Assembly: GCA_963971425.1 (NCBI GenBank) | Contig: OZ020520.1 | Location: forward strand, 12,151,807-12,215,806 | DNA: 64,000 nt | Direction of reading: 5' to 3' | DNA from: Bryoerythrophyllum caledonicum | Taxonomy: Eukaryota > Streptophyta > Bryopsida > Pottiales > Pottiaceae | Part shown: positions 21,177-43,318 of the stretch, piece by piece | How positions within the stretch are numbered: position 1 is the stretch's first letter | Layout: the number at the start of each line of letters is the position of its first letter | The notes under the pieces: model-generated | Seen by the model: the letters and a program-made list of their open reading frames with translations, nothing else | Database searches by the model: none | What the model was told of the DNA's origin: nothing | Translations under genes and position numbers: made by a program

Positions 21177-21191
21177 CTAAATATGGACAAA
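21177..21191 (+). repeat. Left terminal inverted repeat of the 22-kb element
   Basis: CTAAATATGGACAAA, exactly the reverse complement of 43304-43318. It is preceded by TTAA (21173-21176). Confidence 0.85.
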
Positions 21192-21940
21192 ACAAAGTCC
21201 AGAAATAAAAACGAGTCAAAAACAAGTCACTGAGAAAAAACTCAGTCGGCGGGCAGCAGAGGCCAAAAGTAATAAAGCAAGAAAAACTCAATCGACAAAT
21301 CCGATGTCCCAAAATAACATATATCAGTTGCAAAAAAGAGTCGTTTATTGATCAGAACAAATTACAGAGTCGGCTGGCAGCCAACCAAAAAGTGAACATC
21401 TCGAGAACAAATAAATACAACTTCCTAGAAGAAACCATCCGATAATAAACTTGAACGGAAACTAATGACACGAACATGAACCCTCAAAATCAAATTATAC
21501 AACACAAATGTTCACTTTCATGAACTTTACAAAATGCATCCTTCAAATCACGGACAAAAACTAATTTGAAGACCATCGGCTGGCAGCCGAAGGAGAAGAC
21601 CTAGTACCATTCGATTTCGTCCCATCTGACAATTGTGCGCCCACACTCACGCGCCTTTGAAACCGCCTAATGAGACTGACCAGGTCGATGTGCTTGCTCC
21701 AAATATTTAGGCACGCTTGAAAATCTGTAGAGCGGATGGATGAAGGGAAGGATGTCGGTCACCACGTTAGGAATAACATGGTCATTGTCTCGAAGGCTCA
21801 AATGACCCTGAAACGGCCAGGGAATATAACAAATGTTGTCGGGGTTTTTCTTGAGAGACCTTGGGTTCACATCCACGAATAGAACTTGATGAGGCAGGCA
21901 GACAGAACGCGAATGATTCTTCTGAGAAAGAATAGACATC

Positions 21941-23510
21941 CACTACAAGAAAACCAGCCCAATGTGACTAGGTTTTATGACTACAGTTGGGCATAAACCA
22001 AAATATGACTAGCACTGTTTCTAGTCATTTTGACTTAGTCGCTTCGGACAATCTGACTGGGGGTCATATCGGACACTTCTTCTCCCCAATACTACGTTCC
22101 CACAGTGTTTTGGGACCTCAAAATGGGACCTGCAGTGGGACTTGGGTCCATATGACTCTATATAGTCATATATGTATGACTACACGTAGTCATCCATATG
22201 TAAATAGTGACTGAATGAATGACTATTTCTAGTGAGGTATAAGTCAACATAATACTGGTTTTATCACTACGTATAGTAGTGAGATGGTGACTAAATAGAG
22301 TCATTCATTGAGTTGGGAGAACGTGACTCTTTGGAGTCACATCTATTTGGCAACCCCTAGTCACAAATACTCAAATAGCTTCCAAATGGTATGACTAAAT
22401 GTAGTGAGGTATCAGTTAATACATGATTGGTTTTATCACTGCGCATAGTAATGAGATCTTGCACGCATTGAGTCATACATTGAGCCATACATTGAGTCAT
22501 ACATTGAGTCATACATTGAGTCATACATTGCACGCATTGAGTCATACTCTAAAGGAAGAAGCATCTCTAAATAAGAGAGAATATGACACTTGTTCGCAAA
22601 GAATATGGGATAAATGTGATTACATGTTTCAAATGTATGCTCTCATATATTATTACCTTGATTTTTTCAAAATTAACACTTATAGAGGTGCAATTAGCAA
22701 AGAAGAAAGTAGAGCATGTTATAACACTTAACACATAACACTCACTAGTCTTACCAATTGTGTTTTTGTAGGGAAGTCAACTTTTTTTAACATTCATGAA
22801 ATTATAACGTTTATAGGGATAACACTGCTTCCTTGATCCGTTATGGTTTAGAATGTGATAGATTTATGAGTTTTGAATGAGTCCCAGGTCCTTAAGGGCT
22901 TACTTGATGTTGTTGTTTTTCACCAAGGCTGCAGGTGACGGTATCCATTTCCAGAGGCAAAGGCAGATTGCAAAGGCAGGCTTTTTGGCCAATCACAACC
23001 TGAAGGAAGCTTTTGATTAACAGAACATCATTCTCAATGAGAGGTACCCTTTAGAATAGAATTTCAACACTAGTGCTGTAGAGAAGTTTCCTCTTGCAAG
23101 ATTTTGAATGTTAGCATTTGAGATTTTTGCTTCTGATGTAAATCATCTGATTGACATATATGACTACTACTAGTCAGGTTATTTACTACATGACTGGGTG
23201 TAGTCACCCAAACCAACTCTCTTACTACAATAAGTCATACATAAACCAATTACCCTTACCATATGACTACATTACTATGACTACACATAGTAAGCACTCA
23301 GAGCATGACTCTGGGAACCGGGCAGGAGAACATATGTCCCGTTCCCGTAGCCGTTCCCACCCAGGTCCTCAAAAATATGACTACATATATGACTAGTGCA
23401 TGACTGGACCCTCTTAGGACTGATTTTAGACTAAACCAATGACTGAGGTGACTACTCAGTCATATGCGCTTAGTCACATCCAGTCACATTGGGCTGGTTT
23501 TCTTGTAGTG
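21941..23510. mobile_element. Non-autonomous CACTA (En/Spm-type) transposon
   Basis: A 1570-bp element with 29-bp perfect terminal inverted repeats starting CACTACAAGAAAACC, and a 3-bp target duplication ATC (21938-21940 and 23511-23513). The interior is full of TGACTA/TAGTCA words, often as inverted pairs (for example near 22170-22200 and 23155-23290), the subterminal-repeat style to which CACTA transposases bind. No transposase ORF is present, so it depends on an autonomous partner. It is inserted in FCP1-like copy 1 inside the 22-kb element. Confidence 0.93.
22450..22545. repeat. 12-bp tandem repeat inside CACTA element
   Basis: About seven units of attgagtcatac with minor variants (gccatac, gcacgc). 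The gagtca core matches the subterminal-type words of the element. Confidence 0.85.
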
Positions 23511-24147
23511 ATCGTTTTGTAACTCCAAGGAAAATTTATGCTCTGCGCTAAGTCACGTCTGCTATAGACAAATGACAGCCTATCCATAACACCAACCGGA
23601 AGAATATGCCGCAAGACAAGTTGTAACTCCTCCATCGGCATCGTTGACCAAAGCGCGACGTTAAAGCAAGGGAGCAACATATCAAAAAGTTTCTTCAGGC
23701 CCGGCCGGCGAACTATATTCTCACGAGTGCAAGAACCACAAGTTGGCACACGCGGTTTTATAAAGCAAAGGAGCCCATTGACACAGAGGACAACACACTT
23801 TCGATACGGTGAAGGGGTTCCATATAAGCATTTGAAATAAAATGATGACCCCTGGAAAATAAAAAAGAAGACAATCGTCATGATGCCGAATATTAAGGAA
23901 GGATGAAAACACTGTATCGTCGGTTGCCAGCCGACGGGGCATAACAACGCACATGACCATCATCAGAGATGAAGCACATACATGTGATGAAGGCAATACA
24001 TACACACATGAAAGCTGGAATTAGAAAATATATCATAAAATCACAAAAATTAAGAAATTACAAGGAAAGGAGGATGAGTTTCTGATTTTCAGTAGCAATA
24101 AAGAGGAATAGAAACTCGAAAAAGCCCATTCGAGAATAGATGGATAC

Positions 24148-25345
24148 TTAGTTCGAGTAGGTTATTAACAGCTTCGATTCCACTTCATCGGGACAGTATG
24201 GAGCGTCGAAACCCAAGGCTTGGGGATAGATGACTTTCCTGTACTTTTGATGCTGAAACGACCCAGGGTAAAGTCGAGAAGTTCCAAATTCCCAATTTGC
24301 ATGGCAGTACCCCTGAACATTGACTCGAGACTTCAAAAGTCCCGAGAGAAAGGGAACTAACGCACTCAATAGATAAGGCTGCATCCCGGGAACTGAGATC
24401 TCCGGAATATTATACTTAAATAGAGAAGGATGAACAACATTATAGGGGCTATTGAGGATATTCTGGAGAGGAAAGGGATCAACGAGAAGCGTGTTCCGCT
24501 CATTTGCATCAGGCCCGATTAAATAGCGTCTATCAGAAAACATTCGGGCTAACCTCTTCAGCAGCGGCGCAGCTGAAGTCGAGGGATTCTTGGCCGTAGA
24601 GGAATCACAGTAGGTAGTGCCCAACACTTTTGTGTTCTTTCGCAAGTCAGGGAAAACTTCGAACAAGTGATCCATGTGTCGATGGATCGCTCTGGAATTA
24701 TCGGTTGACCAAAAGGCCAACGAAAAGGACGACTGGCAGAAAGCAAGGAACTCTCGAAGCCCAGGCCTAGATTTCTGATAAAAGCTCTTCCTCTTAGCAT
24801 TGCCACGACAAACAAAACTTTCGGCGAAGAGTAGCCCCCTTAGTTCAAGGACGAGGTAGTAGCTTGAAGGACCCACCTGAATGTTCGTGTGAACCAAATC
24901 GGAGCTGAGGTCGGTAGTTGGAACTGAAGCAGACGAAGGTGTCGGCTGGGAGCCGACGACATTGACACCGATAGGACAAGCACCATCCGAAATTAAATCG
25001 TCGGTGTCTACCACCTCGATGTGACAGCGGGTGAAGCCAGAAGCGACAGCGACATTCCCGGGACGCATCGGTGATACGATCTCAACTACGACAGCAAGTT
25101 TGATTACAACTGTAGGCTCCCCGACACGCTGAAGTGAACATTGGCCAGAATCGACATGAAATCCAAGACCGCTAGCGGCAACAAGTTATTTTTGATGCTC
25201 TGGTCTCTCGTAATCTCCCAACAGTGAGTGAAAGCCGCTGAAGCGCGGGGAGATATCCGTCAAGTCAACGTCTCATGGATCAGTCGCAACTGCAAATTGG
25301 TGCGAAATATCCCTAGGAACTCCGACTTCAAGGAATAAATTTTGC
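24148..25345 (-). pseudogene. FCP1-like HAD-fold gene, copy 2
   Basis: The longest open part is 25068-24148 (306 codons). In-frame sequence continues upstream to about 25345 with two stops, so the N-terminal region is damaged. Motifs: YYLVLELRGLLF (nucleophile Asp replaced by Glu, second Asp by Arg), RPGLREFLAFC, FSLAFWST and NTLLVDPFPLQNILNSPYN, the FCP1-type late acidic motif. A palindrome copy (24941-24960) lies in frame in the N-terminal linker and encodes VGSQPT. It sits between copies 1 and 3 on the same strand and is probably a catalytically dead paralogue. Confidence 0.65.
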
Positions 25346-25515
25346 ATCTGAAGTCAATAAAACAGACATGCATAGATTTAGTGAGGCACCAATCACAAAT
25401 AATTGTTCAAAAAACAAAAGAGCTTTATTACCAAAAAATTGTATTTACAGCAAGTCAAGAAAGGTCTGACAAAATGAACATTCGAGGGCGTCGGCTGCCA
25501 GCCGACGCTACAATC

Positions 25516-26175
25516 CTAAGAGGAAGAAATACTAAGACGCATCGAGCTGGGATAAGCTTCGACGTATTCCGCCCACTTTGGATCATCGGGCCAGAGTCTA
25601 GGATATCCGGTCGAATCGATTTTCTCACGAACATACTCAGGAACAGGCAATCCCGAAGAAACCAAATCGGAAAGGAACTGAACAACAGTAGGAAGAACGG
25701 CATTCTTCACGGTCTCCTTCGAAGTCAGATCGAACGTCAGGGGATGCATGACATTGAGGGGACTGTTCCGGACATTAGCAAAACGACAGCAGTCGAGAAG
25801 AAGAGTGTTTAGGCTATTCGCTCCAGTGCCTAACAGGCCGGACGGATGCAAAAACACAGTAGAAAGCCTTCGAATATATAGAGTCCGACTGTTGAACATG
25901 TCGCCGCTGTGTCGTAGAAACTGTTGTCAAAATGATGTCTAATTTCTCTAAGGATGCTACACTGTCCCTCGAGAGCTATCATTTGTAACTTCATAAAGGA
26001 GCTGGATTGGTCACTCCAAACTGCCACAGTGAAGTTGGAAACACAGAACTTGAGAAACTCTTTCAGCATCGGTCGAAAGATGGTATGCCATTTCCTGTCG
26101 GCTCCAACACCTTGCGCCATTAAGAGACCGTTCAAGGATAAGACAAGGAAGTACTTATTGACCTTCTCAGATGGT
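25516..26175 (-). pseudogene. FCP1-like HAD-fold gene, copy 3, frameshifted
   Basis: Starts around KYFLVLSLNGLLMAQ (about 26160-26110), continues with FRPMLKEFLKFC and FTVAVWSDQ, then shifts frame near 25900. It resumes as LYIRRLSTVFLH, ANSLNTLLLDCCRFANV and RNSPLNVMHP. The catalytic Asp is Ser. The frame ends at 25516 and a palindrome copy (25489-25507) follows within 10 bp. A broken member of the tandem family. Confidence 0.65.
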
Positions 26176-26439
26176 CCGGCGCGGAGCGATTAAGACCATT
26201 CACTTGCGTCGCCAACTCCAGAGTCAACCTGAAGAAATGAATGGATGACGATGTATGAATTAAGAACCCATCAAGTGCATAGGAACTTGAGTTAATTAAA
26301 ATCGATGTTTATTAGGGGTAAACATTCACACAAAGATAATATCTATGTGCGAACAAAAAATAAAATTCCATAGGCATGAGGAATGTCATGAAAAGAAATG
26401 TAATGAATTTAAGCGTCGGCTGGCAGCGGACGGATTGAT

Positions 26440-27420
26440 CTAACGTCTACTTGAAAGTGACCTTGGACGCTTCTCGCTTGGAAAGGACCAAACAAACTGC
26501 TCCCATTCGGGTTCTCCAGGAAGCAACCGAAGGTTCCCCGGGACGGCTACCAGCCGAGTCTTATAAGGATCGACAGGCTTAGGTTCAAGAAAGATCACCC
26601 TGCGGCCGAAAGGCACATCAGAGACGACGGCAACATCAGGCAAGACCGCGTCTACACTCGCTGAGAGCCCATCACTCAACTCCGGATTCACAACTTGAGG
26701 ACGAGGACGATGATGCTTGTCACTTTGAAAGGGCAAGGCAAACTTCTTCACCAGGATAAGGTGGTCCACAGTTGAGGTGTACAAGGGTACAGTCCATCCT
26801 ACTTCCTTCATCGCACTCAGAAAAGAAGTTATCACCGAGAGGGCTTGCCTACTCTCTTTGGCAGTCTCAGTTGAAGTGAGAGTGTAGGGTATGGGATGAA
26901 TGGCGTTATATGGAGAATTCTTGACGTTCGAGTACGGATGAACGTTAATCAGGAGGGTGTTGGCGCTATTGGCTCCTTTCCCTATCAAATCCCCATAACT
27001 AAGAAATAACGTTGATAGCCTCTTGAGGTAGAATTTCTTGCCATCGATAGAATACCGAGCTACGTCGCAAAGGGTATTATCGAAGACATGTTTGATTCTT
27101 TGAAGAATGAATTTGAACTGATCTTGCAAGTCGTTAAGAAGAGTCCCCACTCTAGCCGGACTTTCGGAACTCCAAATCACGACAGTAAAATTATCAACAC
27201 AGTACTTGAGAAATTCTTGGGTGTGAGGCCGGAACTTTGTAACACAGTGAGCGCCATGCGTGAGAACCAAACCATTCAATTCAAGTACAAGAAAGTAATC
27301 TTTAAGGGGTGTCAAACCCACCTCAACCATGTGCTCAAACGCTTCGGATTCTCGATCGGCATCAACCTGCTCCACTGCACCAGAAGCAGCAAGTATAGGA
27401 GTACTAGTGCCCTGATCAGT
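26440..27420 (-). CDS. FCP1-like HAD-fold protein, copy 4 (most intact)
   Basis: An uninterrupted frame to the stop at 26440, more than 310 codons. The true start is uncertain, since upstream in-frame sequence reaches about 27440 and may join another exon. Motifs: DYFLVLELNGLVLTHG (Asp to Glu, Asp to Asn), FRPHTQEFLKYC, FTVVIWSSESP, FYLKRLSTLFLSYGDLIG, NTLLINVHPYSNVKNSPYN, then a C-terminal extension rich in Pro and Asp. The late acidic Asp is also gone (LLIN rather than LLVD), so enzyme activity is very unlikely. A palindrome lies just after the stop (26414) and another upstream (27460). It follows the ParB-like gene on the same strand. Confidence 0.65.
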   Translation of the reverse strand, partial: TDQGTSTPILAASGAVEQVDADRESEAFEHMVEVGLTPLKDYFLVLELNGLVLTHGAHCVTKFRPHTQEFLKYCVDNFTVVIWSSESPARVGTLLNDLQDQFKFILQRIKHVFDNTLCDVARYSIDGKKFYLKRLSTLFLSYGDLIGKGANSANTLLINVHPYSNVKNSPYNAIHPIPYTLTSTETAKESRQALSVITSFLSAMKEVGWTVPLYTSTVDHLILVKKFALPFQSDKHHRPRPQVVNPELSDGLSASVDAVLPDVAVVSDVPFGRRVIFLEPKPVDPYKTRLVAVPGNLRLLPGEPEWEQFVWSFPSEKRPRSLSSRR

Positions 27421-28563
27421 TGATTTAAAGAAAGACCATTAAAGGACATTAGATCCCTAGTCGGCTGCCAGCCAACGAACCGAATCAGAAGATTAGACAA
27501 GGTCAGAGAATAATTCAGAAAATCAAACATAAAATTAGCAGTGTATCCCAGCACAGAATCATGATGGGTTTCTAAATATTTCAGAAAATTAGTTGCACGC
27601 TAGGTCACTAAATTCTGAACCTACAGTAAGCTAACTATAAAACTAACTTCTAGATGGATTGCCTGCGCGATCCACAACAGGAGACAGGGACTCGTTTGGG
27701 AGATCTTCGCCATCGGGGGTCATTGGGGTGTCCGGTCTGGAAGAAGAATTGCTTCTTGAACCATGCTTTGCAGCAGAACCCTTTGTCTTTGCCGATGGTG
27801 ACGTCGCCCGCTTCTTCCCTGAAGTTTTGTTGGTAGTCTTTGCCTTCTTTGCTTTAGGGCTTCCAAGAGGAACGTCAGTACGCGTTGAAATTACGGGAAC
27901 TTCATTCTTAGGTCCCGGCGGGACAACTCGAGAATCTCGAGTAATCGATCTTCGGGCAGCAGGGTCCTTTGCGAGATTTGGAGGATGGACAGTCTTTGCA
28001 TTAGTACCCGCTACAGATGAGACGCCAGTCCGGACAACTGTTTTGACTTGCGGTTGCTCGGCCAAATTGATGACCACAGACCCGGAAGGCATCGCCTCTT
28101 CCACTATTGTAGGCAACACAACCGGCATGGATGACTGAGGTCCTTGGACGATATGGGTAATCAGATGGTCAAGACTGGTCTTCTCTTCATTTATCCGGAC
28201 TTCACGATCAGAAGTCTGGTCGTCCGATAAATCATACACATCCAATGAATTCCGTGACATGGATGCTTGGGTAGATTGAACCACAAACTCATCCACAACC
28301 TTCCGAGCAACACGAGAAAATTCATCGTCATCCACAACCTTTGGTGGTGGCGCAGAAGTCTCTCCAAGCTGGGTAACAACAAATGTCGAATCCGACGGCT
28401 GAGGCCAGGTGATTCGATTAGGAACACCAGACGGCTGCGGGAGAAACGACATGTTCTTAACGCGCTCCTTCGCGATAGCAATGTCAGCTTCCTCGCGCAC
28501 AAACTCAATCACAGTTGCTTTCGCCCGCTGAGAAAAAATACGAGAAGATAAGTCAGAAACCCG

Positions 28564-28672
28564 CTGCAAAAAACTGTCGGCTGCCAGCCGACGAGATGCA
28601 ATGACAAGAATTGGTAAATGCAGGACAAAAAAAAGAGCAAGCACGACAAGGGTTAAGGAAACCAACCAAGAC
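28564..28672 (-). other. 109-bp intron containing one palindrome
   Basis: Donor GTCTTG after NVTAL, acceptor TTTTTTGCAG before RVSDL; phase 0. The palindrome is at 28576-28593, only a few bases from the acceptor. Confidence 0.7.
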
Positions 28673-29962
28673 CAAGGCTGTGACATTTCCACCACCCCAG
28701 GCATTGAAGACAGTCAGGTTTGATTCCTTCACCGCTAAGGTGGGACTCAATATTGCGGTGAGCAAACCCATGCATGGATTGCACACATCTCCACACCAGC
28801 TCTCGGTCGAGGGCGAAGCAGCATCGTCATAGACAGGATTAAGAGGCTTCGTCAATCCCGTCACCTTCTTGAACTGGCTGAATCTTTCACGCTCATGACT
28901 CGGTTTGTTGTAGAGGATTCCGACATTAGCCAGAGGTATGTTGTGCATGGCTGACACCTTGAACTTCCGGCTACTATCAGGGAGGTAGCGAATTATGTGG
29001 ACGGCACATAGTCGTGTCGAATTGCAACATTCCGACTCAATTTGGAAACTGGAGTTGTCGTCGGTAATAAGAATTGTAGGAGCAAAAATCTCAGACTGTT
29101 CATCATCACTCACTCGCAGTACCCTCTGCACAACTGCTTTGAGCCCGTCTCTGCCTATAAAGATCGATTCCCCGGCTTCGTCGAATCCAAATACAACGAA
29201 CATCTCGTGAGCTCCCTTCTCGAGTTGCACGTCTCTTTTGTTGCCGATCTTCTTCACCAGTTCGACAAGCCCCTTCGCAACACGAACATCAAAGTGAATA
29301 GCAAACTCATCAACCAGATCCTCATCACAAAGAACGGCGTACTTATTTACTGCCGACTAGAACTCGGGCGGGGCCTCGTTGGTTGTTGGAGTAATCCCGT
29401 TGTTCCTCCCCTTCAAGAATGCTAAGCCAACATCAGACTGCTCCAATTCGCGTTGGATGTTATCAAGGGTTTCATCGTTGATACCCTTTTCAGCGGCAAG
29501 CAACGTAAACTGCTCATACGCCCAAGGGACATATGCGGACTCTCCAGGCTTCTTCAGTGGATAATCGCCGTACTTCAGCATCAATTTGTTCTTGATGATG
29601 TAGTTCATCTTTACATCCTTTACCCACGACTTCATCGACACACCAATAGCCCCCTTCTCCTTTCCTGCGTTCACCTTAATATACACCTTATCCAGAATCG
29701 CCTCCGCCAGCTTCATGGAGTCCTCATCACGCAGCTTGACGAGGTACGAAAGGTCCGTGTGCGTGATGTCCCGCTGCGGCATTCGTGGAATCTGAAGAGG
29801 AGGTTGACCATTCTCCCCAATTAATTGACCCATCTGCCAAGCGGTGAAAATCACTTGCCACTTGTTGTAGAGATCATCAGGAACGAAAACAAGGGGTAGC
29901 TTCTGGGTCTCCACGTCTTTAGCCTTACTCATAATCACAGTGAGGTGATTCTTGCAAAAATC

Positions 29963-30091
29963 CTGCAACAATCACGATGAATAGAGTCAGGTTCCAACAC
30001 ATGTAAGGCCGTCGGCTGCGAGCCGACGGTCAGATACACTGAAGCCACACAACAAGATGAGCATGAACAAACAAGTGAGCACTAAAAGTAC
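29963..30091 (-). other. 129-bp intron containing one palindrome
   Basis: GT donor after CTGGAAG, acceptor TGTTGCAG. Splicing is phase 0 and joins HAAWK to DFCKN. The palindrome is at 30009-30029. Confidence 0.75.
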
Positions 30092-31411
30092 CTTCCAGGC
30101 AGCATGGTCTTGAAGCTTGTCAATGCGACCAAGCTCAATCCACCTCTCCCTCATTCTACGAAGCTGGGGAACGTAGGTCTCTTCCGCTTTCTTCTCGGCA
30201 ATATCAACGTTCAAGAGGTTCGAAATTTTCACCAGGTCGTCTTGAGTATTCAACCGGAGTACGATAATGTCCCACTCCATGAAATACTTAGCTCTCGACG
30301 ATTCGGGGTCCTCCATCTCTCCGAGCTCCTTACACACAGAGTATGTGTGCTGCCCACCAATGATGAACCAATGACAATTTGGTTCTTCATACCACTTGTA
30401 CGTCTGACCGCCGAAATGAACTTGGTCCTCCATCATTTTTGGCACGCTCCTGCGAAGAAGTTCCATACTCTTTAACTCCTTCCCATCTTGAGCAGAACCT
30501 GGTGGAGCAGGTAGAGGAACGCACTATAGTGGCGGTTTTGCCCGCCAAGGACCAACAACTTTGTAGATGATTCAAAGCTGGTCGAGGCGCCTTTCGACGA
30601 GTTCACGGTAGACCATTCCATGGGGCGTAAGGTGGATCTTTGACGAATGAATCTTTACTGGCAGAACCTGCTGCCCAAACGGATAACAATGCCCTAATCC
30701 TTTCTCAACCGTGTTGTACATCTCTTCGACCTCCTTATTGATGGTATTGGATGAGAGGTTGTTCAGACATACCAGCGCTTCGGCCACCGTCTTCACCTTC
30801 GCAGTTTTCTTAGACGCCCGCTTCTTTGGAGCCGGATCAGGTGCCACAGCAACAATAGTCAGCGCAGAACTGCTAGCCTTTTTTGAGGCCCTAGGCTTCT
30901 TTGCAGCTTTACGTCTGCCATTCCCCTCAGATCCGCCATTGAGTGCCACTCTCTAGTCCTTCGCCTGCATAAAGCATTCCACCAATTCCGCGCGGCTCTC
31001 TGGATGCAAGTCGGTAAATTGCATGCCCACCTCCTGTGCTGACATGCAGAGCTCATGTGAGCAGAGGGCCCAACGAATTCGAACAGCATAGGACTTCAGG
31101 TCGTCGTCGGCAACTCGAACCTTCACCATTAGTAGGAGTCGAATACAGTCGTCGTCCTCAGGATCTTCCATAATATCCATCACGGCGACAAGGTTTCCAC
31201 CAAGAAAACTCTTGGCCAAGTGCTTCCCGTTGATTCCCATTTCAGTCACCTCCCCTAGCCTCCAAGTAATGCCCCATTCGGTCAATTCAGGACGAGCCTC
31301 AAATGTGGCATTCGGTACCTGATTATCGAGCCAGACTGCCTCGTCCTCACTAATAGAAGGCCCAAACAGCCACTTCAGCTTACTCAACCTGCGCAACAAA
31401 ATAGCGAGCAT

Positions 31412-33119
31412 TGCTCGTGAGCCACATCCGAGTAGAACGTCGTCGGCTGGCAGCCGACACTAAAGATTACCATTGGAACAGAGCACAATTGCTACAATAT
31501 ATAGCATTACTTCATTCAATGGAACTAAGAATTAAAAAATCCAAAATATATACAGCTTGCCGTCGGCTGGCAACCGACGGTGAAAGAGAATTATACCTAT
31601 CGACTGACGTCATTTTGTCGGCTGCTGGAAAAAACCCGTCGGCTGGTCACTTTGACTCTAGCGCTCGAGCTCCTCCGCCTCGTTCCGCCTGCTCGGTGCT
31701 CCTCCACTGCTTTCTTCAACTTCCGAAAACACTACATCGGTTGGCCGCGGACGGATTCAGTCCTAAACAAGGAAAAGTCTTACAACCTATTCCTGAAGCT
31801 ACTTAACTAAACCAGGAAGAGTAGATTGCAAATAAACCGGTTTGGTGGAAGCCTGACCTTTCATACGTCGTCGAATCTGAACGCCGCGACCGTTCGATCA
31901 ACTTTCGTCCTTAATCGAAAGGCCATGAAAACGTCTCGGTAGTCTGATTGTTTGATAGTCTCGGTAGCCTAACAGTTTTCATCCAACTGGCTGGATTTAC
32001 AGTTGGCATTTTTAATTTCATTTAAATTTATTTTTTAATTTTCCAATACTCAGATTACTTGTCATTTTTGATCTGATGTAACTTTCTTTTTAATATTCTA
32101 ATATAGATTTTCTTAAATGTCTCTTTTATATATTCTTTGATTTTTTGAAATTTCTTTTTAGTTTGGCTTTCGGATTCAACTCATTCTTCCTCGTCATTTT
32201 TATTTTGTTTTTGATTCTCTGATAAAATCTTTTCGAATTTTGCAAGGAAGTTTCGTGTTGAAATTTCACATTCGATTCCGTTCGAATTTGAATTTGAAGT
32301 CCAAGAATGTATGCGCGCGAATTTCTAGGCGCGAATCCACGAAGGTGTTTCTGGCGCGAAATTTCAAAATCGACTTTCGCGCACATGTTCAGCTGAGAGA
32401 GGGATATCAACGCATCTACTCCGTATCCTCTGTCATTACTCGTCTGCTTCTCTTTATTGCACCTGCTCTCACACGCTTTCATGTAGTATAGTTATTGTCT
32501 CAGCCTAGATCGTCCGCTTTGCACTTTTCTGCACTAATTGTATTTAGCATTCAAGCATTCTACCTGTTGCGCGTTGACTAGCACTTTCTGGAAGTAGGCG
32601 TTCATTTATGGTGTAGGCGATCATGTCTCGTTCAATTCTGTTCAATGCTTTCTCCGGTTAGAGCTCAGATTCCATCTTCAGTAAAATCAGTGTATTATCC
32701 TGCAGCTTTCCAGATTTTGAGTAGCAATTTGATACTGTGTAAGTCGACCTTGTTGCCTCACCTTAACGCTGATTCTGCGTTGATCACCTGACTACCTGAA
32801 GTCTTGATACACTAAACACTGGAAACCGAATGTGTGTACAAAAGTGCTCCTTCCCAGTTTGTATCTGCATTCCAAGAAATCACGCACATGCTCTTTCCAA
32901 ATCACAAATTCCCAAGTCTCATGCAAAAGCACTGAAATCCTTTGGAAGTTCACTCGAAACTCGAAACCCTAATCTTGAATTCTAATCCAAAAACCTAATG
33001 CATCAGTTTTGACTTTGTGACGCATGCATTCACACACTTCCTATTTGTGAGCCATTCTCGAGCTGGATCCATAGGTTGATATCTTCGACAAATTTTGTCG
33101 GCTCCCAGCCGACGAAGCC
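31412..33119. promoter_or_regulatory. Divergent promoter region with four E2F-like sites
   Basis: The spacer between the leftward ParB-like gene and the rightward DUF7869-type gene. At 31441-31754 palindrome copies alternate with possible 5' exon pieces of the leftward gene. From about 31900 there is no coding signal; the DNA is T-rich. At 32313-32382 four GCGCGAA/TTCGCGC words cluster: 32313-32322, 32329-32336, 32353-32361 (GGCGCGAAA, the plant E2F consensus) and 32375-32382 (TTTCGCGC). This suggests S-phase expression. A palindrome at 33097 precedes the first recognised rightward exon. Confidence 0.5.
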
Positions 33120-34925
33120 CAGTTGGCATTCTGGATCATGGACTGCGGACCCATTTTATCGTTTATGAAGAACGGAAAATCAAGTCGATGGAAGCCACGC
33201 AAAGGTGTTCAAGTTGCCTTAACTCACTCAGGTCTCTATTATGCTGGATGCACAGTTGTTCAAAAAATCATTCTGAGGGATCCATGGATTATTCGTGTCA
33301 AGGTAATCGATGTTTCCGATTCGATGGAAATGCCCATTCCGTTCCCAATTGATAGACTATCCATGCTTCGCCAATGCTCTGGCCGGTCAATCGATTGGGA
33401 TGCGGCTGACCTTCGTCCATTCGCTATCATTGACAAACTCATTGAGGATCTACCGGAATCCATATTGCAACCCGTTGAGGAAATCAAACTAGTTCTGTCG
33501 TTTCTGAACCTTCGTGACGGAATGAAGGTTGCCCTCCTTGTTGATGTCATGGGTCACAACTGTTGTGCAGGCGTTGGAGTTATCGACGAGTGCTCACCAA
33601 AGGGATCGTGGGAAGGGTTCCTAATTCCTCAAAGCTTCTTTCTGGTTGTCCGAATCTAGACAGTAAATGTTAAGTTCCTCACTTATACCGCATACTGCGA
33701 GCTCCCTGAGGTGAACACGCTTGGTGACACGGTGGGTAACCTTGTTCTCTGGAGTGGCTATCGAGTTCGCCCCATGCGTGTCGGTGACGACACTGGATAC
33801 TCCTCATCTGATGAATATTCAGTGAGTGAGATGTGAGGCGCTTCGGATGACGACGATCGCAGGGACAAGATCTATGATGATAGCACTTTTCAAGTGTCCA
33901 AAGGATTCAATGCGGATTCAGGAAGCGACTCCGAAGCATGTCGAGAGCGATATGAGGACGTTCCGTCGGCTGGCAGCCGACGTTCAACTGATCAACCACC
34001 GATTGAAGCAACCTTCCCTTCAGGGGTCAATTGTGATCAATTTCAGTATCCGGATCGACCACAATGGAGGAACAAGTACTGCCATTTGCTCGACAATAAT
34101 CTCGCTTTAGTTGGGCAAGCGATGATTCAAGTTTGTCTGCCGCATGAAGCATGTGATGCGGACGTTTTGGGTGACACTGACGTTGGCGTACTCTTTGTTT
34201 CTGAGCATGAGGATCTTCAAATGACGACGCGGCGCTAGAAGATTTTGCGCATGCGCCTTGAAGGTGGTCCACTGCTGTCAGAGTGCCTCATCTACTGCTC
34301 TGAGCACAATCAAGCCACATGTAAAGATGACGGGCTTGAGGGGGTGGCCAAGGATCCATATAGAGGTATGAAACGGAAGCTTAAGCAGAAGTGCGATGTT
34401 TCTGTTACCAAGTTTCGACGCCTCCAGTCCAAAGATTCTTGTCAGCTTGTTAGTTCGAAAAAGTGTTGTTCGAGACGATGCTGTCAGATTTTTCTTTGGG
34501 CGGACACTTGTAAAATCCGCCAGCAGTTCTACTCCTCAAGCTTTGAGCAACGACGTGAAACTGCGTACGCTGTTCAGGGCCAGCTCTACGATGTTCCTGG
34601 CTTCCGGAAACCCTTCATAACTCTGCATGGTGTCGACGTTTGCGAAGTTGCGTGGTTTCGCATTCATGGTGTCTCCAAGTCTGCATACTACAAGTATAAA
34701 TCGGATTCATTGAACGGATGCGTAAATGGTGGTCATGGAAATGCGGGAATTCTGCGCCCCAGGTCTCAGACTGTTCAGGCTCGTGGGACCATTTCCAGAA
34801 TCATTAACGATAATGCAGACCACATGCCAAATGAGTTTCGAGTCATCGGCAACAAGAAGGTTGCATCTCTAATGGTTCTTCCTGCTGCGATGGACTGGAA
34901 TCATCTCCGTGACATGTCCAACCTG

Positions 34926-35066
34926 GTATGGTTTAACATTATTACTACTTGCACATTTGACTTGCTCATATAACCCATTGTGTCGGCTGGCAGCCGATGC
35001 ATGTCTATTTTTGCATCTCATTAATTCTACCTCATTACTCTTGATCGCTATCTCTTTCGATTCCAG
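34926..35066 (+). other. 141-bp intron containing one palindrome
   Basis: Donor GTATGG, acceptor GATTCCAG; phase 0, so the reading frame continues. The palindrome is at 34981-34998. Confidence 0.8.
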
Positions 35067-36184
35067 GTGAACTCTGAATGTTGTGTCAAGCTGATTTCGC
35101 AATCTACTGTTAGTCGATTGAAACGGAAGTTTTTTTGGAACGTTGAAGTGAAGGCCGTGGGTAGCAACTTTTCGAGATATACTGAGTGTGACTATCTGGT
35201 TGAGTTTCTAGCCAAATATCCTCGCGGGTCCGACGAATGGCAAGCACTTCATGATGATCGGGCGAGGCATCTCAACTACCAAAGTGTTTGCCGTAATGTG
35301 TAGTCTGGATGGACATCTCAGTCCATTAATTACCCGTCTGAGTTTCTCTGCATTATTCACGACAAAATGGACACTTCAAAGACGGTCATTCCAAGAATGC
35401 AGCGGATTACGAAGGCGACCGCACGTCTTGGACAGATTCCTATTTCATGTACTGGCATGCTTACTCACGGTCACGGCGACGGTGCGTATGCGCATTACTC
35501 GACGTCCTTATGGCCTGGGAACTCCAATTTCACAATTTCGTCCATTTGTTGTGTTCTTCGGGCATTGGAGCGCCGACCTGTGCGTGAGTCAAAGCAGTTT
35601 TTTACATGTCCACCTCAGAATTCGTTCTTTGAATCTTTTCTCCGTGGTAATTCTAGATGTAGTTCGTCGATTCCAGAAGCTAGGGGCGATCCCCTTCCAG
35701 TTTCTTCGCTCGCTCAACCGGAAGTTAAGCTTCCTCGGAAGCTGTATCTCCAACTTGATAACTCTGCAAAGGATAACAAGAACAGGTTCGTCATGGCCTT
35801 CTGTTCGCTTCTCACAGCCAGACGAATTTTTAAGGAAGTGACTGTGGGATTCTTGATTGTCGGCCACACTCATGAGGACATTGAGGCGCATTTTAGTTAC
35901 CTTTCAAAATTCATCAAACGGAAAAACATTTACTGCTTAGCTGACCTCATGAAATCTTTCATGGACTCTGAGAAGACAGTAGCCCTTTATTCCTGAACTT
36001 GTTCAAGAGGTTGCTGATTTCAAAAGTTACATTGCTGATTACCATCACGAAGGCAAGAATAAGCTTGTTGGCCTTGGTGAGATGCACCTTTTCAAATTTT
36101 ACGTTGAAGAGGAAGGTGAAGATGCGGGATGGCCGGTCATGAGATACAAGAGAAGTGCGACGGATTCATCATGGCTCCCTCCGG

Positions 36185-36361
36185 GTGAGGCTCATTTGTT
36201 TTTGTCATCGTTCTGTTTGCATTCATTTTCTGCTGATTTTCTTGTTACTTATTTGTCGGCTGCCAGCCGAAGGATTTTACCTTTGTGCTTCTTTTGTCCT
36301 TCATTCCTTCCATTTCATTGCTCTCTTGTTTTTGTCTAACTTTTTTGTATATTGCATTTAG
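36185..36361 (+). other. 177-bp intron containing one palindrome
   Basis: Donor GTGAGG, acceptor GCATTTAG. Splicing joins WLPP to DKPVKMW in phase 1. The palindrome is at 36255-36272. Confidence 0.8.
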
Positions 36362-37902
36362 ATAAGCCTGTGAAGATGTGGAGGGCGGATCAATTTGGGA
36401 ATCCTAACCTTCCGATTGGTGATCCAAAACCAGTACCTTTCAAGCCGCTTTGGGATGACGTTCATGTCAACGAATCAAAGCAAAACAAGGAGAAGGAGGT
36501 TGCAAGAGCCACTGGAAACAGCGAGAAGCAGTCCTTCATCAAGAACAATATTGCAAAGTATATTGAGTTCTGGAGGACGGGCATGGTGTTATAGTTTGCA
36601 GTGTCAGTATCCCTCCGGAATGCACTTAATCGTCACTAAATGCTTCCAAAGTAAACCACTCCGGTTTCGTTCCCACAGAGATCTATTTATCCTTTCAAAT
36701 GTCTAAAATCACAAGTCTATTTATCACCTAAGTAGATAATCTTTTTAAGTTATAGTTCCGGATCCTTCCGGATCTCGCAATCTACGTAAACATTCCGGAA
36801 CTAGCTTCCGGAAGGGGTCTTTTCCTTTTCGACGTTTCCGGAATTGAATTCCAGAAGACCGGAGGGTAGTTTGATTTACCTCTGTTCCTCCTCAGAGCGG
36901 CTTCCGGAAGGTTTAAGCGAGTGACCGGAAGACCACTGATCCTATTTTGTGTAAGTGGCCGGATTCCCCACTGCCTGGTGACTTTAAGTGGCTAGACACC
37001 CACTGCCCCGGTGTTTAAAGTGACCGGACAATCACTCTTTCCTTACTCTACTAACCGGCAATATGGTGTTGTTTCCTAGACGTAACTCTCACAACATTCG
37101 GAAGGCCTTCCGGATGCGGTCACACAAAGGTACATCCGGATAACAACAACGTTCCCGTAGCACTTTTGTAGCTCCGTGGAAGTTAGGGATATGGTTGTGC
37201 TTGGGAGGACTCCTTCTAATCTCACATAGCAGGTTCTTCCGATCGTGGGGGTAAACTCCGGTTTTGGACCGGAGTCCGGGTTCACACGGACTATTCCGTG
37301 CCCTAGAGAATACCAGGAACACCTCTGCAATATATCTCTTCCCCTCCTGGTTCTTCCGGACTTCTGAAGGTAACCAGGAACACCTCTGCAATCTCCTCCA
37401 GTTAGTCCGGACACTCCCCTGCTGAAGATCTAAACCGATTCACTCCTTAGGACCACCAAACATCCCTTGCCTCCAAGAACCTGATACAAACACTGACTAC
37501 GGTAACGGACCTTGCACCTTGCAAAAAAAACAATTTCCGTCACACACCCTGGGTAGCAAATCTAGAGATAGCTCCGGAATATATTCAATCATAAGGAAAA
37601 TGATACAAAACAAGATGCTGAGTTAAGAAAACTCATTAAACTAAGTACTAGTGAATCAACCTGATCCGGGTGTTATCTAATTTACGAAAAATCCGGAAAA
37701 TCCTATCTAAAATCCCTAAAGGTCCGGGTTCAAATCCTGAGATCCGAAAATTATGGATCTCAGATCCGATTTATCCGCCGGGAATGCCTTCTGAGTTTCC
37801 GGTTGACAAATAAGTCGGTAGCCGGGTGCAATCTGGAGCCCCATCGTTAATCGCTACGACAAGTCTGATAACCGGAGTTAAGTAATCTAATAGTAAAACC
37901 AA

Positions 37903-39936
37903 CTACGGAGTCTTCTTGTGTCGTTCGCTCCGGCGTACCGGAGATGCTCCCATGGTCTGCCTCCGGCTACCTACCCTGTCCGAAGAGGGTTCCGGTACCG
38001 ATCCGGTTCCGGAAGCTGGGGTTTCAGCCTCCGGTTGGTCGGTCGGAATTGCTGCCTGCGTGGCCTTCTCCGCTCTGCCGATAGGAGTTCCTTGCGTACT
38101 CTTGGGGCTGGTGGCCGCCTCCGGATAGCCTCGCGACAGGGGTGAAGTAGTCTTCCGGCGCCCGGAGGTAGGTGGCGAAAGATGGACCCGGAAGCCGGGA
38201 GAAGCTCCCTGGAATAGTGATGAAGGAAGGGGGGATTTCCGAGCCGTCTCCGGACTGTTGGGAGGAGCCCTACTCTGCGGTCCGGGAAGAGCTGATTCCG
38301 GTGTTGCCACTGGCTCCTCCAAAGGTTCCTTACCCTTTCCGGAGGGTTCCGGCACCTGCGGTGAAGGTCCGGTCGCCTCCGGGGAAGAAGTAAGGTCGAT
38401 GGTAGGGTTGGGCGCTGCCGGTTTCTCCGAAATAACAGTACTGGTTGCGTTATTCGCCAGTACTTGCATTTGTCCCCAGGCCTTCTCCATCTTCCGGCCG
38501 TGGTCGAGAAGGAACCGGATGATCTGACCCCGGTTCGGCTCCACTCCTTTCTCCAGGTATTCTGTGAAAAGGAGGCTCCGGTTGACGGTGTCGACCGGAA
38601 AACTGAGCGCTGATCGGACCTCGCTCATGGCTTGTGCTGAAGCGATGGCTTTGTCTTCTGCCGCCTTCCGGAGTTCTTGGGCTTCCTCCAGCGCTGCGTC
38701 TGCCTTTGCCAAGTCCTGCTGCATTTTCGTCCGGGCTTGTAAAAGGACTCGGTGCTGTGCTTCCATCTGCTCCCGCCGGAAATCGCTCTCTCCAAGCGTC
38801 TTTAAGCGAGGAAGGATCTCCTCCGAGTCCTCCACCCGGAGCTCCCCCATGATGCTATAAATCAGGGCGGTGCTGTCATTGAGGTGTTGGTTGATCCGGG
38901 TGGCTCTCCACGCGACATGTTGGAGGAGCTCCATGATGTCCTCCTTGTTCCTCCCGGTGAGTGTTGGAAGGTCCGGAGTCGGGCATCGACCGGGTCTCTT
39001 TGAAGGTCCTGCTCCGTCATCATCTTCATTCTCCTCCCCCGGAGTCGGGTCTAGACGGGTGGTCGGGGAACGCGCAGGTGGGGATTCCGGTTGCATGGAG
39101 CGACTCCTCTTCCGTGTCTGAGGGGTTGGTGCCGGAGCTGTCTCCGTATCGTCATCCTCCTCCCCCTTGTCATCCGCCTCGACCCCTCCGTACCTTTGAA
39201 TCGTAAGCAGCGCCTCGTACTCGTCATGCTCATCCGGTTTGAGTAACTCGTGCCGGTGGTAGAGGTGAGTAAGGTACGCTGGCAGCGGTGACCCTGCCTT
39301 CCGGTTCCGGTGGAGATTTTTGACCAGCCGCTCCACCAAGTCTTGCATGAGAGAGGCCCAATCGACCTTGATCTTCTCTCGCATGGCTCCCAAAAATGTC
39401 GCTGCCCACTTCAGCACTAAACGCTTGGGTTTCTCCGGGTGAAAGATAGGGTTTAGAAACCCTATCACAATCCGGGCTTTTGGGTCAGTCAGGTCGTCGA
39501 TGGAATAACCCTCCTTCGGATCAGCCGGCCCCCTGAACTCTTTCTCCGTGAGCTCATCCTTGCGCTCCGCCACCTTGACGTCCCCATCGGCGAAAGCATA
39601 CGTCCGCTTCCAGTCCGCCCGGGTCCACTTCTCCGGGTGAGCTCGTATACTCCCGTCGTACTGATTATCGGGAGTGCCGACCAACTCTGTCACGATATTC
39701 TCGTCTTTCGTCCCCCACGCTGCAGCTATCAAACCGGAGCACCCCATGACGTCGAGGAAGTGAAACAGCGTATGAAGATCTCGGTCCGCTGCTGGGTATT
39801 CCGGTATCACTCTCACGATGGGTGGTCCTCCGGTGGCGGTGCTCTTCACCTTCTCCGGTTTCCCGGCCCGGTCACCCGCCATGCTGCTCTTCCGGTCGCG
39901 ATATTCTCCGGCCGGACCTGCACGCACTGACCTCAC
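37903..39936 (-). CDS. 677-codon ORF of the TCCGGA-rich element
   Basis: Intact and uninterrupted, unlike the genes around it. The start may be the first Met (39936) or MAGDRAGK at 39882. Regions: an N-terminal globular part of about 240 residues (HTLFHFLDVMGCSGLI, FLNPIFHPEKPKRLVLKW, VDWASLMQDLVERLV, SPLPAYLTHLYHRHEL); an acidic low-complexity stretch with EEDDDTE; a helical coiled-coil-like region at about residues 330-480 (Glu/Ala/Gln-rich); and a long Pro/Ser/Thr tail. The layout recalls plant transposon-associated proteins with an N-terminal helical domain and coiled coil, but no family is claimed. It could be a Gag-like or accessory transposition protein. No RT, integrase or DDE motif is seen. 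Confidence 0.6.
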   Translation of the reverse strand: MRSVRAGPAGEYRDRKSSMAGDRAGKPEKVKSTATGGPPIVRVIPEYPAADRDLHTLFHFLDVMGCSGLIAAAWGTKDENIVTELVGTPDNQYDGSIRAHPEKWTRADWKRTYAFADGDVKVAERKDELTEKEFRGPADPKEGYSIDDLTDPKARIVIGFLNPIFHPEKPKRLVLKWAATFLGAMREKIKVDWASLMQDLVERLVKNLHRNRKAGSPLPAYLTHLYHRHELLKPDEHDEYEALLTIQRYGGVEADDKGEEDDDTETAPAPTPQTRKRSRSMQPESPPARSPTTRLDPTPGEENEDDDGAGPSKRPGRCPTPDLPTLTGRNKEDIMELLQHVAWRATRINQHLNDSTALIYSIMGELRVEDSEEILPRLKTLGESDFRREQMEAQHRVLLQARTKMQQDLAKADAALEEAQELRKAAEDKAIASAQAMSEVRSALSFPVDTVNRSLLFTEYLEKGVEPNRGQIIRFLLDHGRKMEKAWGQMQVLANNATSTVISEKPAAPNPTIDLTSSPEATGPSPQVPEPSGKGKEPLEEPVATPESALPGPQSRAPPNSPETARKSPLPSSLFQGASPGFRVHLSPPTSGRRKTTSPLSRGYPEAATSPKSTQGTPIGRAEKATQAAIPTDQPEAETPASGTGSVPEPSSDRVGSRRQTMGASPVRRSERHKKTP

Positions 39937-40200
39937 AAGAGCCCTCTTCTACTGCCGGTTGCTAAAGGAGCACCCGGCTACGAAGCAGAAATAAAGAATC
40001 GCAAATAGTGCGAGGAGAGGGAAGGAGGAGAAGAGGAAGATAACTGATTTGAGAAGTTCCGGCGGTTACCTTTTTATAACGGCCCTAAGGTACGGGATTC
40101 TTCAATGGTAGTGACGTCACTATCTAAGTGAATTTAACGGCTCTTACGTCACCATCATCATGATAATAGTTTTAGTGACGGTTATCCCCTGATTTCCCCC
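39937..40200 (-). promoter_or_regulatory. Promoter of the 677-codon ORF
   Basis: On the minus strand, TATAAAAA (40071-40078) lies about 135 bp upstream of the first Met, and TGACGTCA (40112-40119) about 34 bp further out; a second ACGTCA-type core lies near 40146. TGACGTCA is a binding site for bZIP/TGA factors in plants. This TATA-plus-bZIP arrangement suggests a genuine, possibly inducible, promoter. Confidence 0.5.
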
Positions 40201-41608
40201 CCGGAACCTAGTTCTTTTTCCGGGTAGTTCAGTTCACACCCGGGTTCAGTCGTGACCGGAAAACCGGATATGGCACTGAATAAGAGCTTTTAAGAACTTA
40301 ACTAGTCCGTCCCTTATGCTATTTTCTAGTTTTGGTTTTCTTCCACATTTTTTTCTTTTTAATACTCTTTTACTACTAATATTTATTTTTTTAGCCGGAT
40401 TCTACGGTTAATTTCCGGAAACCGGTGGGACTACTTCCCACACATGGCTTGAGACAAACGATATGCCGCGGATATGGAGCCTTTCATTGATTATTGGGAG
40501 CGTCTCTTACAACTAATATCTGGTCCTCTCCCTCCAAACCCCAACTGTCTGCAAGAAGGATTCTGGCCGAAATCGGACTGGATGCGTGATCATGCTCGCG
40601 TAGCATCACAGCCGGATGCAATTATTTCGGGCTTGGATGTCACACCAGAAGATGAGCCTGACGCTTACCCTTTCTGCGGCCCCGAGATGAGCCGTCCGAA
40701 ATTATCCTTCAATCCATTTCGTGATGTTCTCCTTGGTGATTTTGTACTCTGCCGACCTTGCACTGGGCATTACCTTCCTGTGTGGATGGGCCGGGTACTG
40801 GAGTGCGTCAACCACAGTCCTAGGGATCCCTATGGAAACTTTAAGGTTGAATGGTGGGTTCCACTCACGACCAAGAAAGATTCTAAGAAGATCATCGGGA
40901 AGGAGTGTTGGAATAGGCGGTGGGAGCGTGAGCAAAGGGATCCAGATGTTCAGAACTGCAGTATCGTTCTCTTCTCGCATCGCTACCCGTCTCATAATAA
41001 GCGTGGGCCTCCAAAGACCCACCGTATCCCACCTGAAGCGGCGAGCGCTGCAATGGCTTGTTTGGAGGCTGGTGGCATCTGTGTTCATGGCAGTAGCGAA
41101 TGATTGCATTTTCTTGGTCGGCTGCCAGCCGACGGGTTGATAATCTCTGCAATGTAATTCGTTCATCATATATTAATTTGAATGCTGCTTGGAACAATTG
41201 TATCTGCCGGTCTTTCGGCCATTGATACATTTTCCAAGTAACTCATATGTCATGATCTCAGTCTGAGTAGTTGGTGTTATTCTTGTCAGCTGCCACCTGA
41301 CAGCCTCTGTATTTTGCATATGCAGTTCGATCCATTTTTTGTGGTCAAAGTCTTCGTGCGTGTGAAGGAAAGACTGAAATCTGTGGCACGTGTGTTGCTC
41401 GGTATCATAATGACGAGTAGATGGGTAGTTGTACATGAGTAATTATTGTTGGTGCGCAATTTGCGGCAAGTGAATTATAAATTCACGGATTCACTGTATG
41501 TGAAGTATCTCATTGTGTTCAGTTGTTTTTGTGTATCTTGGTTTATATTTGCCACAGGTTGGAGTGATTTCTTCTTTTCTTAGTCTGATTTTGTTTCCAG
41601 CCGACGAC

Positions 41609-42043: not shown

Positions 42044-42949
42044 ATGTGAAGTGTAGTTCAGCTTGTAAATATTCCCCTGCAGTTGCTTTTCTCTAATCGA
42101 TTTTCCAGACTGCTGCCATCTAAGGGGCACCTCCAAATGTAACATTCATTTTGACTAAAATATCGTGCTCTATTCGGATCTTATCCTTGATGTACTTCAT
42201 TTTAGTCAAGCTTGTTTTTACCTTTCTGTTTTGATGTTGTGCTTTGTAGAATGCTGTGTGTAATAGAATTTTGTTATCAATGTATTCTCTTGATGGTCGT
42301 TTATGGATGTTCAATATTTTACGTGCTGCCAATTGGCAGTCATCTTTTTATGAAACCCACGTCTTCTTCTTTGTTTTTGTCTTCAGATTGATCACCTGTA
42401 TTACTTTACCCACTTTGCCGGACTTAATTGATGGATGTTTTTTTCACAACATTCTATTGGCAGGATTTCATTCTTTTTCATTGAAGTTCTTCTTGTCGGT
42501 TGTCAGCCGACAACCTTTTCTCATTTCAAGTTTGGAGATCATCTGTTTGCCCTTCTTACTCGGGCCTTTACTCTCTTAGTGTTTCCCTAATTTTTCAGGA
42601 GATCATTCTGCCATCTGCTACTATTTTTACGAGCTGCCTGCCGGGAGCCTTCTTTGTTTGTAGTCCACTAAAGTCTCTGTTGTCCGTCGGCTGCCGGCCG
42701 ACGTCTGGACTCGTAGGACAAACCACGTTCTTCGTTTTCATGTTGACCACCTCTCATTGCTTCATATTTTTGGTTTAATTTCCAAATAATCACCTTATTT
42801 TTCATCCCATTTTTTGAATTAATTGTTTGATCATTGGAGTTTTTTTACTCACCTTTTTTAATCATGAGATTTCTTCTACAAAAATATTCGGTGATTCTAA
42901 TTCCTCCTCTTTCTTTGTCGGCTCGCCCCTGACCTTTAATTATGTCTTC
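42044..42949. other. Right flank of the 22-kb element, no clear gene
   Basis: T-rich DNA with palindromes at 42494-42511 and 42684-42703 and a degenerate copy at 42917. Possible 3' UTR, or small exons of a further gene. Acceptor-like ttttgtcttcag near 42387 is not followed by a recognisable domain. Confidence 0.35.
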
Positions 42950-43085
42950 GAGAATCCTTAGGGCATATGGAGATTTTTTAGGGTTCAAGGGGAATATTTA
43001 GGGTCTGGGAGAATATTTAGGGTCTAGGAGAGTATTTAGGGTCTACGGAGAATCTGTAGGTTTTTGGAGAATCTTTAGATTTTGT
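42950..43085. repeat. Subterminal tandem repeat, unit about 22-25 bp
   Basis: Four to five imperfect copies built on gagaatatttagggtct, ending 230 bp inside the right end of the 22-kb element. Subterminal repeats are common in DNA transposons. Confidence 0.75.
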
Positions 43086-43303
43086 GGATTGACAACCAAC
43101 GCTTAAAGTTAAGGATTCTAGTGGTTTTGAAGAGACTTTATTATGATATGAGACAGTTATTATAGTTTTATGTGGGACAATGTTTGGTGGCACGCAATTT
43201 TGAATGTATATGTTTAGGATTTAGCCCATATTTTCTTGTTTTTTTGTATGATATAGGAAATGAAATCCAAGTCTAAGTTTTTTTTTGGTCCATAATTGAT
43301 CGA

Positions 43304-43318
43304 TTTGTCCATATTTAG
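43304..43318 (-). repeat. Right terminal inverted repeat of the 22-kb element
   Basis: Reverse complement of 21177-21191. It is followed by TTAA (43319-43322), after which LINE 2 sequence resumes. A related word, tttggtccataa, lies 20 bp further inside. Confidence 0.85.

Follow-up and report, generated by a model that had tools for sequence, protein, structure and literature searches.

A decayed multi-gene DNA transposon in the moss Bryoerythrophyllum caledonicum with a likely DUF7869 transposase and an array of short palindromes

In a 64,000-nucleotide stretch of contig OZ020520.1 from the moss Bryoerythrophyllum caledonicum (positions 12,151,807 to 12,215,806; hereafter the window), we identified a large DNA transposon with several genes that sits within a long interspersed nuclear element (LINE). 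With moderate confidence, we read it as a decayed copy of a ~16.7-kb DNA transposon family, in which a DUF7869 protein is the likely transposase and a 17-bp palindrome, GTCGGCTGSCAGCCGAC, would be bound in double-stranded form by one of the element's own proteins. The palindrome is a new observation, missed by an earlier reading made from the letters of the window only (the sequence-only reading), which had described a 22-kb TTAA transposon with a cargo of several genes.

The ends of the element were settled by its other copies. We searched the genome (437 Mb, 894 contigs) with the left 324 bp of the element as first proposed and scored 40 matches of 98 candidates, the window included, at 91–100% identity; the low divergence of the terminal inverted repeats (TIRs) among these copies is biased, because that end was the query. 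The first 20 copies listed after the window, 10 kb of each, served as the comparison sample. In all 20, the border AAYRGATATTTAA precedes the left end that had been proposed, as AACGG in 17 copies, AATGG in two and AACAG in one, and the flanks diverge beyond it. These 13 bp, lying before the proposed left end and conserved in every copy of the sample, belong to the element and move its start to 21164. The right end was placed at 43331 because the inverted repeat there mirrors the left end, and TTAA thus lies inside the TIR. The sequence-only reading had therefore set each end 13 bp too far inward, and the TTAA that it had taken for the target duplication belongs to the element, the true duplication being ATAG. 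Its long inverted repeat at both ends holds, now as 35 bp at 91% identity, with the inner 25 bp perfect by reading.

21164–43331, unstranded: whole element, 22,168 bp, or ~16.7 kb minus two nested insertions
21164–21191, plus strand: left TIR, AATGGATATTTAACTAAATATGGACAAA
43304–43331, minus strand: right TIR, reading AACGGATATTTAACTAAATATGGACAAA on that strand
21160–21163, plus strand: target site duplication ATAG, left
43332–43335, plus strand: target site duplication ATAG, right
42950–43078, plus strand: subterminal 19-bp tandem repeat, two units of which share ATATTTAG with the TIR

Exact 4-bp target duplications flank 21 of the 23 copies for which both ends were recovered, the window copy among them. 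Right ends were sought for 13 copies, of which L078 and L085 yielded none in the stretches searched, and 11 further pairs were added. The duplications, four of them read by eye from the sequence ends, are ATAG (window), GTTA, TTAC, TATT, TTAA, AATA, ATAG, GTAT, ATTA, CATT, ACAT, TAGT, GAAA, AAAT, GTAG, ACAC, ATAT, TTTT, TTTG, GGTT and TTTG. The two exceptions are L060, with 5 bp (CACAA), and L110/L111, with none. The target duplications of this family are thus 4 bp long, AT-rich and not sequence-specific.

The host LINE tells the same junction. When the flanks are joined at ATAG, the LINE reads EPWKILIKHRLHSLQLLKGGTWSQDVNWLF in frame and unbroken over the junction, with stops farther along in what is a decayed element; when they are joined at TTAA, the LINE is out of frame and meets an immediate stop. 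The reading frame across the junction supports LINE sequence on both sides, as does the left piece, which, once frame-patched, matched RVT_1 at E 5e-5 and 23.5 bits, under the Pfam cut-off of 29.6; plain reading frames gave no match. At the right LINE flank (43685–44109) lies what resembles a miniature inverted-repeat transposable element, its perfect 29-bp arms separated by 367 bp.

19800–21163, plus strand: host LINE left flank, decayed
43332–43690, plus strand: host LINE right flank, decayed, limit set by eye

These observations bear directly on a TTAA-specific transposon of piggyBac or Kolobok type, to which the TTAA ends of the sequence-only reading would point. TTAA does stand at both ends first proposed, with an inverted repeat inside, and to the eye this resembles piggyBac. 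Kolobok elements (PMC9587614) are likewise TIR DNA transposons with an accessory protein in some lineages, and the AA...TT termini found here agree with the 5'-RR...YY-3' pattern given there, a weak criterion. However, Kolobok duplicates TTAA (PMC9587614), whereas here the 4-bp duplication varies and was TTAA in only one of the 21 exact cases, and the conserved outer 13 bp and the broken LINE frame also oppose a TTAA target. The borders and duplications of the other copies rule out a TTAA element, and we regard this reading as hardly credible. The large multi-gene DNA transposon inside a LINE stands; its TTAA specificity does not, as 20 of the 21 exact duplications are other words.

Right ends were also searched (40 scored of 122 candidates), and 32 of the 40 scored left ends could be matched to a same-strand right end, so that other copies sharing both ends, the check proposed with the sequence-only reading, do exist. 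The paired copies measure 16,434–16,862 bp in 15 of the 32 cases, 3,173 bp in one, and 14.8 and 16.1 kb in two, while 14, the window copy included, exceed 20 kb, the longest perhaps being mispaired. The 3.2-kb derivative (G000:C7:19140221-19143393) shares these ends and is flanked by the 4-bp duplication AAAT. Accordingly, 22 kb is not the native size: the window copy reaches 22.2 kb because CACTA-type and long terminal repeat (LTR)-type units of 1,570 and 3,856 bp sit inside it.

21941–23510, unstranded: nested CACTA-type insertion, foreign to the element, with 29-bp perfect TIRs and a 3-bp duplication, ATC
36587–40442, unstranded: nested LTR-type unit, TG...CA, with a 5-bp duplication, CATGG, splitting the DUF7869 gene

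The CACTA-type insertion is skipped in 19 of the 20 other copies, where 21940 joins 23511 directly; copy L058 aligns with the window only as far as 21816. In the five second halves of other copies that were fetched, 36586 runs into 40443, and the LTR-type unit is absent from all of them. This unit carries a 681-residue open reading frame (ORF) on the minus strand; no LTR pair was found for it, and it is perhaps the solo LTR of a large element. Sequence related to it occurs in copy L061 (79–83% identity in aligned pieces). As a separate observation, contig C1, which makes up 15% of the genome, bears 17 of the 40 scored left ends (binomial p 2e-5); it could be a sex chromosome or a chromosome rich in transposable elements.

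With the ends and the nested units defined, the following genes were delimited, their exons being predicted.

33140–41103, plus strand: DUF7869 gene, exons 33140–34925, 35067–36184, and 36362–36586 then 40443–41103
27646–31430, minus strand: large gene, no family assigned, exons 30092–31430, 28673–29962 and 27646–28527
26440–27438, minus strand: FCP1/NIF-like gene C, LELNG, open in the window, E 1.4e-10
25516–26189, minus strand: FCP1/NIF-like gene B, LSLNG, frameshifted in the window, E 1.2e-6 for 25830–26189
24148–25185, minus strand: FCP1/NIF-like gene A, LELRG instead of DxDxT, E 1.1e-5
21604–23959, minus strand: FCP1/NIF-like gene D, split by the CACTA-type insertion, lower limit mapped from copy L062
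41609–42043, plus strand: acidic ORF, no family match

The first of these, which the sequence-only reading had called DDE-like, matched the Pfam family DUF7869 (PF25273) at E 7.8e-38 and 130.4 bits against a cut-off of 26; no named transposase domain came up in the ORFs scanned with Pfam. It has two predicted GT-AG introns, and the separate ORF at 40453–41103 is its last part, matching the C-terminus of Ceratodon proteins. Besides the nested unit, the window gene has five in-frame stops and one frameshift by reading. The gene was found in all five second halves of other copies, each with at least one interruption, although the tblastn stop counts include read-through introns. A search of 5,229 candidates returned 74 relatives at E ≤1e-3, Riccia and one bacterial metagenome-assembled genome (MAG) among them. 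The best were from Physcomitrium patens (63% identity, P0001) and Ceratodon purpureus (62–65%, P0002 and P0003), over 94–100% of the 541-residue query part, and some distant relatives, at ~38% identity, are large clusters of 647 and 201 members. Five aspartates (D82, D85, D214, D254 and D256) are kept in 50–54 of the 54–55 aligned sequences, within the conserved acidic motifs HDKMD, QLDN and GHTHEDID, and their spacing is DDD-like. Given the wide family, the conserved acidic set and the fact that this is the sole gene with relatives found in other mosses (the FCP1-like and large genes were searched without a match, the acidic ORF being left out), the DUF7869 protein is likely the transposase of the element. 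The family would then move by a TIR-and-transposase mechanism with 4-bp target duplications, and it is these TIRs and duplications that point to cut-and-paste or a similar DNA mechanism.

Among prokaryote genomes, DUF7869 occurred in one 4.3-kb contig (L001) of a Synechococcales MAG, at 34% identity and with no matching palindrome; the contig is perhaps eukaryote contamination. A protein from an Armatimonadota MAG (P0074) also matches DUF7869, weakly. No paper in the literature searched, from which subscription journals were mostly absent, names this domain.

It is possible, if less probable than the reading above, that the element belongs, as a divergent branch, to one of the described cut-and-paste superfamilies that duplicate 4 bp, with DUF7869 as its transposase. 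Sola elements have a 4-bp target duplication and are the lead here, compared by duplication length alone. The duplications of this family and the wide spread of DUF7869 among the 74 matches, Riccia and the bacterial MAG included, both suit such a placement. We consider it very improbable, by contrast, that the element is the remnant of a virus or of a Polinton-like element. It is large and carries several genes, as do the giant Helitrons, Polintons and Teratorn (PMC6431247), but the Pfam scans made revealed none of the hallmark domains of those elements, and no viral hallmark in the ORFs given. The element is also far smaller than Teratorn, which is reported to span 180 kb (PMC10175614), and its predicted introns, TIRs and 4-bp duplications argue against a viral origin. 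No DUF7869 was found in the viral contigs searched, and the 46 stretches in viral contigs that resembled 18 bp of the TIR are taken as chance.

The second main feature of the family is its palindrome. Within the element, GTCGGCTGSCAGCCGAC occurs five times exactly, 16 times at up to one mismatch, 18 at up to two, 21 at up to three and 23 at up to four, and at these levels it is confined to the element: the 41.9 kb of the window outside it has none, nor does either nested insertion. Among 100 second-order Markov sequences of the element, the mean at up to three mismatches was 0.03 and the largest count 1, versus the 21 observed. Genome-wide, 428 exact sites were found in 437 Mb, compared with none for the reversed pattern. 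Of the 50 sites listed from these 428, 26 lie in five copies with known or estimated ends and 16 in four copy-like clusters read by eye. The 18 sites at up to two mismatches, each 17 bp and unstranded, are as follows.

21369–21385: left subterminal
21575–21591: left subterminal
23919–23935: upstream of FCP1 gene D
24941–24957: near the start of FCP1 gene A, possibly coding
25490–25506: directly after the stop of FCP1 gene B
26415–26431: directly after the stop of FCP1 gene C
27460–27476: directly before FCP1 gene C
28576–28592: large gene, second predicted intron (28528–28672)
30011–30027: large gene, first predicted intron (29963–30091)
31442–31458: upstream of the large gene
31562–31578: intergenic
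33097–33113: directly upstream of the DUF7869 gene
33965–33981: within DUF7869 coding sequence, in a poorly conserved stretch
34982–34998: DUF7869 gene, first predicted intron (34926–35066)
36255–36271: DUF7869 gene, second predicted intron (36185–36361)
41117–41133: directly after the DUF7869 stop
42495–42511: right end region
42686–42702: right end region

By the limits set, 17 of the 18 are noncoding, whereas coding sequence makes up 63% of the element; a single coding palindrome has p 6e-7 under uniform placing. A second one (24941) falls within an open frame by FCP1 gene A that was left outside the coding limits. All four predicted introns hold a palindrome, and the palindromes average 0.7–0.9 kb apart. 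Their centre base over the 23 sites is G in 11, C in 11 and T in one, so the two orientations are about equal. The other copies compared carry palindromes at the same positions, and at eight of 12 sites the majority base, taken over up to 21 copies, is perfect.

Introns, intergenic DNA and the neighbourhood of the ends all hold palindromes, in either orientation, and the word is concentrated in one family; this suggests that the palindromes are protein sites in duplex DNA. An element protein would bind double-stranded GTCGGCTGSCAGCCGAC, and by analogy such binding would most likely mark or de-silence the family's own copies, or else assemble the ends. The large gene is the first candidate for encoding this binder, speculative as that is.

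We also weighed two other accounts of the array. One makes them hairpins, either RNA or single-stranded, or else tiny mobile units. In single-stranded DNA the 19-mer does fold well (-9 kcal/mol, z -4.5), and the sites are scattered over noncoding places; but their occurrence in introns as well as flanks with about equal orientations better suits double-stranded DNA, and their fixed places in the copies compared show no movement. We therefore think this account unlikely. The other, to which we give a slightly better though still small chance, takes them for subterminal and internal transposase sites required for transposition itself and not for anti-silencing. TnpA of En/Spm offers a precedent for transposase sites needed in transposition, and at up to four mismatches the first 430 bp of the element hold three palindromes and its final 840 bp another three. 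The remaining ones, however, lie deep inside, in introns and beside genes.

Several results weigh against the reading of the palindrome as a site for an element protein and of DUF7869 as the transposase. Eight of the 50 listed genomic sites stand alone, tied to no known copy. Palindromes were not significantly enriched in introns over the rest of the noncoding DNA (p 0.07, counting up to two mismatches). In dead copies, decay is no slower in the palindromes than around them (0.032 versus 0.021 at non-CpG positions), and selection on them after insertion is not seen there; the changes are mostly C-to-T and G-to-A, the pattern that would be expected of methylated DNA. No DNA-binding domain was identified in any element gene, and a PDB profile search with DUF7869 gave no match. 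Finally, the palindromes of relatives are known as peptides and not as DNA. These peptides themselves count in favour of the reading: sequences that such a palindrome would encode occur in the DUF7869 relatives P0001–P0004, and those of Ceratodon and Physcomitrium carry one or two changed residues, which hints that the palindrome word changes between lineages. Distant relatives gave four further matches to this pattern, apparently by chance.

The remaining gene content agrees in part with the sequence-only reading, the DUF7869 gene and the acidic ORF of its gene set both being present. Its four FCP1-like genes were likewise upheld by matches to NIF (PF03031); they lie in tandem on the strand opposite the DUF7869 gene, and gene C is present in 19 of the 20 other copies. 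Matches above the Pfam cut-off were obtained for the window pieces of A, B and C and for the versions of B, C and D in other copies. Gene D in copy L062 is a 261-residue open frame with a NIF match at E 4.6e-8, compared with E 0.11 for the window piece, and the copy of gene A in L075 scored E 0.0086, under the cut-off. FCP1/NIF phosphatases have a catalytic DxDx(T/V) motif. The DxDxT motif is absent from all four genes, with LELNG, LELRG, LSLNG and LCVNG in its place, and the FCP1-like alignment found no homologues among 7,553 candidates scored.

Between these genes and the DUF7869 gene lies the large gene of ~1,170 codons in three predicted exons, which have in-frame stops in the window and are open in copies L075, L072 and L067. 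It had been labelled ParB-like, a label we dropped, there being no significant family match in Pfam, NCBIfam, PHROGs or PDB sequences; of 7,997 candidates scored, none was a homologue at E 1e-3. The position of the acidic ORF holds an open frame of 173–179 residues in copies L057, L074 and L075. Elsewhere in the window, we observed a C/D-box small nucleolar RNA, snoR126 (14512–14599, minus strand; Rfam, 55.6 bits), and a fragment of glycosyl hydrolase family 28 (12473–12916, E 1e-5).

Among known systems, the nearest logic appears to be that of VANC proteins and VANDAL elements, which we draw on as an analogy and not as membership. VANDAL and other MULE elements duplicate 9–11 bp of target, in contrast to the 4 bp found here. 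The VANC domain is DUF1985, and no VANC (DUF1985), MuDR-type or MULE transposase domain was found in Pfam scans of the ORFs given. VANC21 of Arabidopsis is reported to bind short noncoding motifs of its own family and to remove silencing (PMC5735166, PMC10398659). VANDAL21, as described there, is similarly a multi-gene plant DNA transposon with a short motif enriched in its own family, placed mainly in noncoding DNA including introns, and the motif differs between related families (PMC5735166, PMC10398659). Unlike the palindrome, however, the VANC21 motif YAGTATTAY is reported there as non-palindromic, dense and in one orientation (PMC5735166, PMC10398659). The closest parallel in sequence comes from the DUF7869 proteins of Physcomitrium patens and Ceratodon purpureus, known as proteins alone, which are similar and include the palindrome-like peptides. 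Literature on giant, moss, TTAA, Sola and bryophyte transposons, in the sources accessible and mostly outside subscription journals, contained nothing describing this element at the level of titles and opening abstract lines. A bolder proposal, which we hold to be rather doubtful, is that DUF7869 defines a transposase superfamily of its own, together with a second, independently evolved form of sequence-specific self-recognition in which a palindrome array and a non-VANC reader co-diverge across Physcomitrium, Ceratodon and this moss.

Taken together, the family offers dozens of copies with exact ends and duplications, and DUF7869, a widespread and uncharacterised domain, gains a testable function. 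Should the palindrome indeed serve in anti-silencing or self-marking, mosses would have a parallel to the VANC strategy of Arabidopsis.

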